This document shows, piece by piece, positions 39,124-54,580 of a stretch of 64,000 nt of DNA. The DNA comes from Pseudarthrobacter enclensis (lineage in GTDB: Bacteria; Actinomycetota; Actinomycetes; Actinomycetales; Micrococcaceae). The notes under the pieces were generated by a model that was given only the letters and a program-made list of their open reading frames with translations, made no database searches and was not told where the DNA came from. A program made the translations under genes and the position numbers. Where the stretch lies: positions 248,001-312,000 of the forward strand of contig NZ_JAUSRE010000001.1 in the NCBI RefSeq assembly GCF_030811655.1, written 5' to 3'. Each line of letters opens with the position of its first letter. Position 1 is the first letter of the stretch.

Positions 39124-42039
39124 GTGGCCAAGGTCCGCGTACATGAGCTCGCCAAAGAGCTCGGTATAACTTCCAAAGATGCAGTGACAAAACTGCAGGA
39201 ACTGGGCGAATTCGTTCGCTCCGCCTCTTCAACCATTGAGGCCCCCGTTGTGCGGAAACTGCGCAACGCCTTCCCCGACGCTGCCGCCAAGTCGGCTGCA
39301 CCGTCCGCAGCGCCCGCCGCCGCGCCCAAGGCACCCGCTCCCGCAGCGGAATCACGTCCTTCAGCTCCGGCTCCCGGCCCCGCTGCGCCCAAGGCTCCGG
39401 CCGCCAAGGCGCAGGCACCGGCTCCGGCTGCGCCCGCTGCCCCCGCACAGGCGGCAGCCCCGGCTGCGCCCGCTGCCTCCGCGCCTGCAGCGCCCGCTGC
39501 GTCCGCGCCTGCCGCTCCGTCCACCGGCGCCAAGCCCGGTGCACGTCCGGCTCCCAAGGCCGAGACCCCGGCGCCGTCGGCACGTCCCGGTGGGTCAACG
39601 CCCGGTGCCTCCGGTCCCCGTCCAGGCGGTCCGCGTCCCGGCAACAACCCCTTCGCCACCTCGCAGGGCATGCCCCGCGGCCGCGGCGGAGACGGTGAAC
39701 GCGCTCCCCGTCCCGGCAACAACCCGTTCGCCACGTCCCAGGGCATGCCCCGCCCGGGCGGCAGCCGCACTGACGGCGACCGTCCCGGTGGTCCGCGTCC
39801 CGCGGCCGGTGCAGGTGGGCCCCGCCCCGGTGGTCCGCGTCCCGCGGCCGGTGCGGGTGGACCTCGTCCCGCAGCCGGTGCAGGTGGACCCCGTCCCGGC
39901 GCCCCGCGTCCCGGTGGTCCCCGTCCCACTCCCGGCATGATGCCCAACCGCACCGAGCGTCCCGCACCCGCAGGTGCAGGCCGTCCCGGTGGCGGCCGCG
40001 GTCCCGGACGTCCCGGTGGCGCTCCCGGCACCGGCGGTCCCGGTGGCGGCGGCGGTGCTCCGGCCGGCGGTGGCTTCGGCAAGGGCGGACGCGGCCGCGG
40101 CGGCACCCAGGGTGCCTTCGGCAAGGGCGGCGCAGGCCGTGGCAAGCAGCGCAAGTCCAAGCGCGCAAAGCGCCAGGAACTTGAGCAGATGAGTGCCCCG
40201 TCGCTGGGTGGCGTGAGCGTACCCCGCGGCGACGGCAACACCGTTATCCGGCTTCGCCGGGGCTCGTCCATCACGGACTTCGCCGACAAGATCGAGGCAA
40301 ACCCCGCCGCGCTGGTGACCGTGCTGTTCCACCTCGGTGAAATGGCAACCGCCACCCAGTCGCTGGATGAAGACACCTTCGCCCTGCTCGGTGAGGAACT
40401 GGGCTACAAGCTCCAGGTCGTCTCCCCGGAGGACGAGGAGCGCGAACTCCTGTCCAGCTTCGACATCGACTTTGACGCCGAACTCGAAGCCGAAGGCGAC
40501 GAGGAACTCGAGGCACGTCCTCCAGTAGTCACCGTCATGGGCCACGTCGACCACGGTAAGACCCGGCTGCTCGATGCCATCCGCAAGTCCGACGTCATGG
40601 CGGGCGAGCACGGCGGCATCACCCAGCACATTGGTGCCTACCAGGTCACGCACACCCACGAAGGCGAAGACCGGAAGATCACCTTCATCGACACCCCGGG
40701 CCACGAGGCGTTCACCGCCATGCGTGCCCGCGGTGCGAAGGTCACCGACATCGCCATCCTGGTGGTCGCAGCGGATGACGGCGTAATGCCCCAGACCGTT
40801 GAAGCCCTCAACCACGCCCAGGCGGCCAACGTGCCGATCGTCGTGGCCGTGAACAAGATCGACAAGGAAGGCGCCAACCCGGACAAGGTCCGTGGCCAGC
40901 TGACCGAGTACGGCCTGGTTCCCGAGGAATACGGTGGCGACACCATGTTCGTGGAGGTCTCTGCCCGCCAGAACCTGCACATCGACGAGCTGCTCGAGGC
41001 CGTCCTGCTCACCGCAGACGCCGCCCTGGACATGCGCGCCAACCCGAACAAGGACGCCCGCGGCATCGCCATCGAAGCGAACCTTGACAAGGGCCGCGGT
41101 GCGGTAGCCACCGTCCTGGTACAGTCCGGCACCCTGCGTGTCGGCGACACCATCGTGGCAGGCACGGCCCACGGCCGCGTCCGTGCGATGTTCGACGACG
41201 ACGGCAGCGCCCTGACCGAGGCAGGCCCGTCCCGCCCCGTCCAGGTGCTGGGTCTGTCCAACGTCCCGCGCGCCGGTGACACCTTCTTCGTGACTGCTGA
41301 CGAGCGCACCGCCCGCCAGATCGCCGAGAAGCGCGAAGCCGCCGACCGCAACGCCGCCCTGGCCAAGCGCCGCAAGCGCATCAGCCTGGAAGACTTCGAC
41401 CAGGCCGTCGCCGAAGGCAAGATCGACACCCTCAACCTCATCCTCAAGGGTGACGTGTCCGGTGCCGTGGAAGCCCTCGAGGACGCCCTGCTCAAGATCG
41501 ACGTCGGCGAAGGCGTGCAGCTGCGCGTCATCCACCGCGGTGTGGGTGCCATCACCCAGAACGACGTCAACCTGGCAACGGTCGACTCCGCCGTCATCAT
41601 CGGCTTCAACGTCAAGCCCGCCGAGCGGGTTGCCGAACTGGCAGACCGCGAAGGCGTCGACATGCGCTTCTACTCCGTCATCTACGCAGCAATCGATGAC
41701 ATCGAGATGGCGCTCAAGGGCATGCTCAAGCCGGAATACGAAGAAGTCCAGCTCGGCACCGCCGAGGTCCGCGAAGTCTTCCGCTCCTCCAAGTTCGGAA
41801 ACATCGCCGGCTCCATCGTCCGCTCGGGCATCATCCGACGCAACGCCAAGGCACGCGTCAGCCGCGACGGCAAGATCATCGGTGACAACCTCACGGTCGA
41901 GTCGCTCAAGCGCTTCAAGGACGACGCCACCGAGGTCCGCACGGACTTCGAATGTGGTATCGGTCTTGGGTCGTACAACGACATCATCGAAGGTGACATC
42001 ATCGAGACCTTCGAGATGCGCGAGAAGCCGCGCGTCTAA
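39124..42039 (+). CDS. infB: Translation initiation factor IF-2
   Basis: 971 aa. N-terminal IF2_N helix-turn-helix-like domain ([21 protein letters not shown], 3-23), then a long low-complexity Ala/Pro linker (about 55-155) and Gly/Arg/Pro repeats (about 155-350) including two copies of [13 protein letters not shown], then the GTPase domain (G1 GHVDHGKT near 473, DTPGH near 522, NKID near 577) and domains II-IV. GTG start with CAGGAG upstream. It brings initiator tRNA to the ribosome. Long open frames on the opposite strand here come from the high-GC repeats and are not genes. Confidence 0.97.
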
Positions 42040-42061
42040 GCTGTCTCAGCCTTACCGGTGC

Positions 42062-42089
42062 GGGGCCGTCGGGATTTTCCGGCGGCCCC
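42062..42089 (+). terminator. Hairpin just downstream of infB
   Basis: RNA stem GGGGCCG-U-CGG / CCG-G-CGGCCCC (11 pairs counting one U-G) with a six-base loop GAUUUU. It begins 23 bases after the infB stop. There is no T run, and one strand can instead pair with a second arm 73 bases further on (nested palindrome). Confidence 0.5.
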
Positions 42090-42182
42090 GCCCCTTCGCT
42101 GGGTGGCCTACGTCTGACGACGTCGGCCACCCAGCTTCGGCAGGCCCGATGCCACTCCCAGGCCGCCGGAAAATCCCGACGG
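42066..42182. repeat. Nested palindrome between infB and rbfA
   Basis: Outer arms are 22-bp perfect inverted copies: 42066-42087 (starts CCGTCGGGATTTTCC) and 42161-42182 (ends GGAAAATCCCGACGG). Between them sits a second hairpin with 17-base arms 42098-42114 and 42119-42135 (GCTGGGTGGCC outer part, ACGTC inner part, one mismatch, TGAC loop). The first outer arm can also fold on itself (42062-42089), so two exclusive RNA structures are possible. Confidence 0.8.
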
Positions 42183-42293
42183 TAGTCCCGTCGTAGACTC
42201 GCCTTAGGTGCGTGGCACATAACTGAAACGTTCGATGCAGCCTCTGTGCCGCCGTCGTACGTCCCTAATTTTTTCTTCTTATAGGAGTTGTTC

Positions 42294-42803
42294 ATGGCTG
42301 ATCCGGCACGCGCTGCCAAGTTGGCGCAGCGGATTAAGGTTGTTGTTGCTGAGGCCCTGGGCCGGAGGATCAAGGATCCGCGGGTGGAGGGCATTACTGT
42401 CACTGATGCCCGCGTGACCAATGATCTTCAGCATGCCACTGTTTACTACACCGTCCTTGGCGACCAGGCTGTCCAGGCTGATGCTGCCAAGGGGCTTGAG
42501 AAGGCCAAGGGTGTGCTTCGGCAGGAGGTTGGACGCAACATCACCGTGCGCCTGACCCCCACCCTTGAGTTTGTGGCTGACCAGATTCCGGTGGTCGCGT
42601 CAAACCTCGAAGAGCTGCTCCGCGAGGCCAAGAAGCGCGACGCCGAGGTGGCCGCACTGGCTGCCAAAGCCAAGCACGCGGGCGACGCCGATCCCTACAA
42701 GTCTGATGCATCCGCCGACGTGGACATCGACGAGGACGACTTCGACGAAGAGGACCAGGACCTCGCCGACGATGAGGATCTCGACGAGGACAGCAACAAG
42801 TAG
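42294..42803 (+). CDS. rbfA: 30S ribosome-binding factor A
   Basis: 169 aa from the ATG at 42294 with AGGAG seven bases upstream. KH-fold domain (about 5-115: AQRIKVVVAEALGRRIKDPR, then VEGITVTDARVTNDLQHATV) and an acidic Asp/Glu-rich tail (about 135-169). It acts in 16S rRNA 5'-end maturation. The first half uses many codons ending in T (ATT, GTT, GCT, ACT) unlike its neighbours, while the second half is normal. A strong terminator follows. Confidence 0.95.
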   Translation: MADPARAAKLAQRIKVVVAEALGRRIKDPRVEGITVTDARVTNDLQHATVYYTVLGDQAVQADAAKGLEKAKGVLRQEVGRNITVRLTPTLEFVADQIPVVASNLEELLREAKKRDAEVAALAAKAKHAGDADPYKSDASADVDIDEDDFDEEDQDLADDEDLDEDSNK

Positions 42804-42810
42804 CACCCCA

Positions 42811-42850
42811 CACCAGGGGCCCGGAAGTAATTCCGGGCCCCTGGTGCTTT
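42811..42850. terminator. Strong terminator after rbfA
   Basis: Perfect 16-base arms (CACCAGGGGCCCGGAA and its complement, 42811-42826 and 42831-42846) with loop GTAA, followed by CTTTT on the plus strand. It separates rbfA from the convergent ScyD-like gene. Confidence 0.9.
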
Positions 42851-54540: not shown

Positions 54541-54580
54541 CGGCGGGACCGGTGGATGATCCACCGGTCCCGCCGCTGTT
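54541..54580 (+). terminator. Hairpin terminator after pnp
   Basis: Perfect 17-base arms (54541-54557 and 54559-54575; CGGCGGGACCGGTGGAT and its complement) around one G. It begins 30 bases after the pnp stop and is followed by CTGTT. Confidence 0.8.

Follow-up and report, generated by a model that had tools for sequence, protein, structure and literature searches.

A palindromic repeat between infB and rbfA belongs to a family of small, probably mobile repeats in the Micrococcaceae

Introduction

What is the nested palindrome that separates infB from rbfA in Pseudarthrobacter enclensis? The window, the 64,000-nucleotide stretch of DNA analysed here, contains infB, the gene of translation initiation factor IF-2 (39124..42039, plus strand; above the cut-off of NCBIfam TIGR00487), and downstream of it rbfA (42294..42803, plus strand; above the cut-off of NCBIfam TIGR00082). 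The first-pass annotation had read the sequence between them as an attenuator that tunes rbfA or, alternatively, as a MITE-like element. We propose, with a probability of roughly 70%, that the feature belongs to a family of palindromic repeats, non-autonomous and probably mobile, and is not a dedicated rbfA switch.

Results

Structure of the copy between infB and rbfA

The 5' outer arm (42066..42087, plus strand) is 22 nt long, locus-specific, and lies within a native hairpin. The 3' outer arm (42161..42182, plus strand) is its exact reverse complement. A repeat search of the window returned the pair with 100% complementarity and a spacing of 73 nt. When spacers of up to 150 are allowed, no other perfect inverted repeat of at least 18 bp occurs in the 64 kb; 20 mononucleotide shuffles of the window gave at most three perfect inverted repeats of 14 bp. 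Between the arms lies the core unit (42088..42160, plus strand), a 73-nt segment common to copies at every locus. Specifically, the core contains a conserved 5' box, CCGCCCCTTCG (42088..42098, plus strand), an inner hairpin of 38 nt (42098..42135, plus strand), whose sequence is free yet paired, and a conserved 3' box, the 18-mer AGGCCCGATGCCACTCCC (42142..42159, plus strand), with a mini-hairpin, GGC-CCGAT-GCC, at 42143-42153. The inner hairpin has 17-nt arms (42098-42114 and 42119-42135) with 94% complementarity and one mismatch. The repeat search thus bears out the first-pass annotation in its description of a perfect 22-bp inverted repeat enclosing a second hairpin.

The 5' arm also folds on itself, as had been claimed. 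The native infB-rbfA intercistronic hairpin, GCGGGGCCGTCGGG-ATTT-TCCGGCGGCCCCGC (42060..42091, plus strand), contains G-U pairs, and the repeat search gives the arms of this local hairpin as 42057-42072 and 42079-42094 (16 nt, 88%). It is the local 11-pair hairpin of the first-pass annotation, and it is real and native. It occurs whether or not the element is present, and may still influence the transcript. The local fold and the long fold are mutually exclusive, again as had been claimed, and the long fold is the stabler for 42040-42190 (−98.4, versus −73.1 for 42040-42144 plus −10.1 for 42145-42190 folded apart). RNA folding of 42040-42293 gives −122.7 kcal/mol, far below the shuffles (z −7.0; as low in none of 200), and DNA folding of 42060-42190 gives −57.3 (z −10.5; as low in none of 200).

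The gap from the 3' arm to rbfA (42183-42293) is 111 nt long, compared with about 30–35 nt after the hairpin in empty alleles, and includes GCCGTCGTAC, which is common to other element-bearing gaps. Judging by the extra 75–80 nt or so of 3' sequence, the inserted unit may be longer than the palindrome.

A repeat family with a conserved core

The double palindrome upstream of rbfA belongs to a family of small repeats in Arthrobacter-like soil Micrococcaceae. The genome itself has three further intact copies, and AGGCCCGATGCCACTCCC occurs exactly at four places in all. With at most one mismatch, the 18-mer is present in 97 of the 101 genomes of the window's genus, at 0–8 copies per genome and with four genomes lacking a match, whereas a reversed control pattern gave one match in total. 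A 254-base query matches 99 of the 101. The MITE-like alternative fits these results, with copies elsewhere in the genome and the genus that are present in some relatives and absent from others. The first-pass annotation had held that many copies genome-wide would refute its switch and point to a mobile element; copies elsewhere do occur and the family is genus-wide, although the copies in this genome are not many.

A covariance model built from 32 diverse copies matches 43 of 295 genomes (7 of 32 genera) family-wide and 10 of 396 genomes (2 of 109 genera, both in the window's own family) order-wide, under stricter filters that weak copies can escape. In a sample of the class, the exact 18-mer is found in 3 of 394 genomes, all of the window's own genus, and 80 records among the 18-mer matches listed are mostly from Arthrobacter, Pseudarthrobacter and Paenarthrobacter. 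Pseudarthrobacter is a member of the Micrococcaceae, and within the genus, family, order and class searches the repeat family is met only there. The exact 18-mer was not found in viral contigs, and blastn against plasmids and phages (E up to 1) gave short, weak matches in 93 and 59 records respectively, with no match extending over 80% of the query. Four matches (L091, L096, L121 and L178), in other organisms or without the remaining element, resemble chance.

At least 215 distinct copies were parsed. The layout of a copy is outer arm, CCGCCCCTNCG, inner hairpin, six variable bases, AGGCCCGATGCCACTCCC, one base and complementary outer arm, with a core of about 71–75 nt across the family. CCGCCCCTNCG is exact in 150 of 153 parsed copies. 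AGGCCCGATGCCACTCCC is exact in 149 of the 153, a constancy that is partly due to selection because the contig scan was seeded with the exact 18-mer and most of these copies were found through it; it is also exact in all 33 loci that BLAST found without that seed. The inner hairpin measures 37–40 nt in 187 of 188 copies. The outer arms reach at least 14 bp in 157 of 175 copies, and the most frequent length is 22–23 bp, in 68 copies (counting ended at 25).

The window's own genome also has a fifth, weak covariance-model match (G000:C3:258285-258439; 155 nt, E 4.6e-5). A second, partial copy of the end of infB, with long stretches of G and of C, lies where its contig C20 ends (L002) and is probably an assembly artefact.

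Gene neighbourhoods and copies inside genes

Flanking proteins place 187 of 188 parsed copies in seven gene neighbourhoods; the reference set for naming loci came from the first 166 copies, and a rare extra locus could escape it. There are 68 copies at infB-rbfA, 27 at rho-prfA, 26 plus and 17 minus at grpE-dnaJ, 3 plus and 15 minus at jetB, 10 plus and 9 minus at cysD/cysH, 10 at pdhC and 2 at ssuC. Both orientations thus occur at three loci: grpE-dnaJ, jetB and cysD/cysH. The one copy outside the assignment (L140) sits after infB near the end of its stretch. Gene identity was examined in one example each: infB, rbfA, rho, prfA, cysD and JetB are above curated cut-offs or clear, and GrpE, DnaJ, PdhC (2-oxo acid dehydrogenase E2) and SsuC (ABC permease) are family matches below the NCBIfam cut-offs. 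Other genes, which from recognising their sequences we take to be cysH, pdhB, jetA, jetC and ssuB, are named accordingly. No common theme was seen among the loci, which span translation, heat shock, sulphate activation, 2-oxo acid dehydrogenase, Wadjet defence and an ABC transporter, so their functions were given no weight as evidence of regulation.

Several copies lie in frame inside protein genes, the hosts being named by NCBIfam, Pfam and PADLOC. Of 29 genomes read for CysD, 3 have a protein that is extended at its N-terminus by the element, in either orientation, and the other 26 have no intact element. In the translations read, the element is in frame near the C-terminus of JetB, where copies in both orientations have similar flanks, and within a linker of PdhC. 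In one example each of CysD and JetB, the added stretch is outside the best-matching conserved domain. Specifically, the family match of CysD in L059 begins at residue 55, past the added stretch. For JetB of L099, the Pfam domain extends to 225 and the best PADLOC match to 268, close to the start of the added stretch.

At coding loci, 48 of 49 copies have an inner hairpin of 37 nt, which is what preservation of the reading frame within genes would predict; in all 138 intercistronic copies it is 38–40 nt long. An open-frame test of 215 copies places 51 of the 53 with a 37-nt inner hairpin in a frame that best matches cysD, cysH, jetB, jetC, pdhC or ssuC, with no matching open frame for the other two; the element-coded peptide may itself raise such matches, and the translations read are the firmer evidence. 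Frame matches of intercistronic copies to infB, rbfA, prfA and dnaJ (57 of 161) were given no weight and probably stem from element-coded peptides or alternative frames in the reference set. The inner 37-mer is identical in one ssuC and one pdhC copy, and inner hairpins at jetB and cysD are nearly identical.

Peptides such as IEPVEIS and VVEPVET, in CysD of L309 and PdhC of L056, resemble products of a GGTTGAGC...CTCAACC repeat. Other repeats may thus add peptides to CysD and PdhC too.

Pair types in arms and inner stems

In an alignment of diverse copies, both sides have changed in 24 of the 32 pairs examined, and 89.9% of cells are paired. The covariation score is 0.62, compared with 0.15 for shuffled and at most 0.15 for slid alignments. 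The first-pass annotation had looked to covariation as a check on its switch. The covariation is strong, but it is nearly without G-U pairs, which argues against selection on RNA. Specifically, 81 distinct outer arms contain 974 Watson-Crick, 9 G-U, 19 A-C and 11 other pairs, by a count that ends where two neighbouring positions fail to pair and so favours Watson-Crick pairs. The corresponding figures for 132 distinct inner stems are 1227, 5, 28 and 60. Thirteen of the 188 matches were left out of this typing: six too near the end of a stretch, four chance-like, two with runs of N, and L137, which has no 5' half. A-C pairs outnumber G-U pairs in both arms and stems, whereas selection on RNA from one strand would be expected to leave G-U above A-C. 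Native hairpins in 29 gaps without an intact element, a set that includes disrupted copies and remnants, have 74 G-U among 766 pairs in minimum-energy folds; the two G-U figures come from different methods, are not like for like, and serve as a guide only. Judged from these alignments, arms that covary almost only as Watson-Crick pairs point to DNA with homogenisation by template switching rather than to RNA selection.

Empty, filled and disrupted alleles

At infB-rbfA, 29 gaps were read, 21 from members of the genus picked for a weak element match and eight from other genera. The 21 comprise 16 with a simple hairpin only, two with an element that has other arms, one with a disrupted element and two with remnants; the eight have unrelated strong hairpins. 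The simple hairpin of the empty alleles (L231, L234-L248) corresponds to the window's 42060-42091 hairpin. Because this hairpin exists without the element in relatives, the window's 3' arm is best read as an inverted copy of part of the native hairpin. Of 20 further infB-rbfA gaps retrieved, 19 were read: 15 carry the element intact, in three it is disrupted, and one has a deletion. In several of these gaps an intact native hairpin precedes an element whose arms are different. Compared with shuffles, the 90 nt directly after infB have a z below −2 in 76 of 78 distinct element-bearing gaps, in which part of the element falls within those 90 nt, and in 27 of 29 distinct gaps without an intact element. 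On the evidence of such predicted folds, the native hairpin after infB, which is separate from the element, may serve transcript processing, protection or attenuation. Any effect of the element on rbfA expression would be a side effect.

At rho-prfA, 30 gaps were retrieved and 27 read, and the element is present in 14 of the 27. The empty alleles L348, L355, L364 and L373 have the stem CCGCTCAAAATATGCCGGCC, or close variants, around a 3- or 4-base loop, and in the filled alleles L353, L367 and L368 such a CCGCTCAAAATATGCCGGCC-type stem closes the core. Where the empty stems have a U-G pair, the filled stems have U-A, which fits one arm being copied from the other. By eye, no target duplication was seen between empty and filled alleles. 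Four genomes of genus g31 (L395, L397-L399) have similar plain hairpins, and this suggests that the plain hairpin is the older state; genera g8 and g18 also carry element copies here, which makes an old insertion with later loss a possible alternative. The arrangement of the core within a hairpin loop is seen only at rho-prfA. At infB-rbfA, the core adjoins the 3' side of the native hairpin.

At grpE-dnaJ, 30 gaps comprise 14 with the element, one with a disrupted copy, one with arms but no core, and 14 with what by eye are other palindromes. The palindromes in these last gaps (L258, L262, L263, L266, L268, L269, L272, L276-L278, L280, L282, L284 and L286) are of the forms CGAGATGGCAGTTCG..., GGTGGTTGAGC...CTCAACCACC and GGATATGGGGCGGTG....

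Other palindromes accompany the element. A second palindromic family, of the CTCGCAAGCTCG / GAGCTTGCGAAGGTTGGGA type and with variable arms of its own, is inserted at or near the core mini-hairpin GGC-CCGAT-GCC in L349 and L363 (rho-prfA), L232, L381, L382 and L385 (infB-rbfA) and L260 (grpE-dnaJ). In L093, L100, L267 and other grpE-dnaJ gaps, a pair of facing copies, with 101 bases between the starts of their 18-mers, flanks a central palindrome GGT..TCTCGCCTWAGGYGAG..ACC, half of which also follows the window's copy near 42195-42210. An extra palindrome around GGGGTCA...TGACCCC lies upstream of prfA in L359, L362, L366-L368, L371 and L372.

Turnover on a tree

A tree of 26 genomes was made from grpE, cysD and part of rho, and states were coded by hand, with the unread rho gap of G020 scored as absent. 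Presence at rho-prfA requires at least seven changes (shuffled mean 8.7; as low in 87 of 500 shuffles), presence at grpE-dnaJ ten (mean 8.8; 449 of 500), presence at infB-rbfA two (mean 2.9; 43 of 500), and the native-arm type at infB-rbfA eight (mean 8.8; 212 of 500). Presence and absence carry little phylogenetic signal, with a hint of tree signal at infB-rbfA. We rejected this patchiness as proof of transposition, since allele exchange would give the same pattern.

Discussion

How might such a family spread? One possible course of events, which we put forward tentatively, begins with a core of about 75 nt entering the loop of an existing hairpin, or a site adjoining it, for which the rho-prfA alleles offer support and from which the other loci would follow by analogy. 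The core would probably enter as folded single-stranded DNA, moved by a putative enzyme acting in trans, and would borrow the stem of its host as arms. Polymerase template switching would then make the outer arms perfect complements and could flip the core. At infB-rbfA, the core would have entered immediately 3' of the native hairpin, part of which would have been copied in inverted form to give the 3' arm. A second palindromic family would in turn insert into the core, at the mini-hairpin or close to it, and the outcome would be nested hairpins between operon genes and in-frame additions in enzymes. Template switching between inverted-repeat arms is described as homogenising the arms and inverting the spacer (PMC8604942), and it would account for locus-specific perfect arms, the lack of G-U pairs and the presence of both orientations. 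Counting against transposition, few loci are in use, so random transposition is not what is seen.

The main rival within the mobile-palindrome reading is the exchange of old alleles by homologous recombination. Here, old insertions at a few loci would have been spread and lost through the flanking genes, with no present transposition and with template switching keeping the arms perfect. Such exchange would leave a largely similar pattern, and the small set of loci common to several genera, the patchy pattern on the tree and the broad likeness of arms within a locus across species are all in its favour. We nevertheless regard it as rather doubtful. Near-identical inner hairpins at different loci (ssuC and pdhC, jetB and cysD) count against it, as do infB-rbfA elements with arms unlike the intact native hairpin next to them.

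Alternatively, a core that varies so little could reflect a selected function. It is unlikely, in our judgement, that the core serves a chromosomal protein as a folded or cruciform binding site, with copies kept for that function. Although the core hardly varies across genera and even inside coding sequence, copies are lost, leave footprints and are disrupted by other repeats, and their number is low and variable, down to none in the four genomes of the genus without a match.

An RNA attenuator or switch that tunes rbfA through the local 5' hairpin and the long fold as alternative transcript structures, the first proposal for this locus, is highly improbable. In its favour, the two folds are mutually exclusive, the G-U content of local folds is ordinary, and the sequence after infB is strongly folded with or without an intact element. 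Against it, the same core recurs across unrelated operons, in either orientation, and also within genes, where it keeps the frame; it is missing in 16 of the 21 picked genus members read, and its arms have hardly any G-U pairs. Consistent with this, neither an intrinsic terminator nor a U-tract after the stem was found in 41900-42400. An Rfam search of the same interval gave 10 matches at E up to 5, each under its gathering score; the best (E 0.0042, 24.7 bits versus 50) is at 42260-42287, outside the element.

The closest known kinds to the palindromic family proposed here are Rickettsia palindromic elements and REPINs. The element resembles these, and also REP-targeting insertion sequences, as an analogy and not as an established member of any. 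Rickettsia palindromic elements are described as palindromes of about 150 bp that lie in frame in unrelated genes and encode a conserved peptide (PMC10969869). By that description, the likeness is in-frame insertion in unrelated protein genes, namely CysD (with empty orthologues), JetB and PdhC. The differences are other bacteria, another sequence, a greater frequency between operon genes, and a near-invariant core between locus-specific arms that codes in both orientations and occupies about seven neighbourhoods.

REPINs, or REP doublets with RAYT, are described as short non-autonomous palindromic DNA thought to move via hairpin intermediates (PMC3116915), and REPs usually have more than 100 copies, as stated in PMC2817692. 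In contrast, copies of the present element are few and its arms differ between loci, and a Y1/RAYT transposase was not found in the window's own genome by a search limited to PF01797, which gave matches in 5 of 14 control genomes. Unlike MITEs, the element has inverted-repeat arms that differ by locus, rather than terminal repeats common to all copies. IS1397, IS621 and ISKpn1 are insertion sequences reported to target REP palindromes (PMC1525189). Their preferred landing sites, palindromes, recall the sites of the element, but they are autonomous, with a transposase gene, whereas the element has only its core of about 75 nt.

Quasipalindrome correction, as set out in PMC8604942, fits the perfect arms and flipped cores. 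However, it is a mutational process and leaves the conserved core unexplained. Other palindromes in coding sequence are described for palindromic amphipathic repeat coding sequences and for Nematomorpha mitochondria (PMC2996958, PMC6649704), and by these descriptions they resemble the element in being palindromic DNA within protein genes, in other organisms. No published description of this repeat was found in the open-access literature searched, nor in the passages of PMC12306157 that were consulted.

The family offers a dense natural record: at least 215 distinct parsed copies, together with alleles of related genomes that are empty, filled, disrupted or reduced to a footprint. From this record one may learn how palindromic repeats are placed within hairpins, how their arms stay perfect and how they come to form parts of proteins. 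Such repeats could be mistaken for new regulatory RNAs in covariation studies, and a count of G-U pairs, which are almost absent here, may offer a simple test that separates DNA palindromes from RNA structures. Likewise, intercistronic hairpins such as that of infB-rbfA should not be read as gene-specific attenuators without caution.

A few further structures were noted. In another genus, the rho-prfA gap L406 contains a shorter related core with a CCCGAAGCCGCTCCC box and a short inner hairpin, and weak model matches of 62–63 nt also occur. In the window, two further perfect inverted repeats of 16 and 17 bp, at 42811-42846, directly after rbfA, and at 54541-54575, are probably ordinary terminator-like hairpins.
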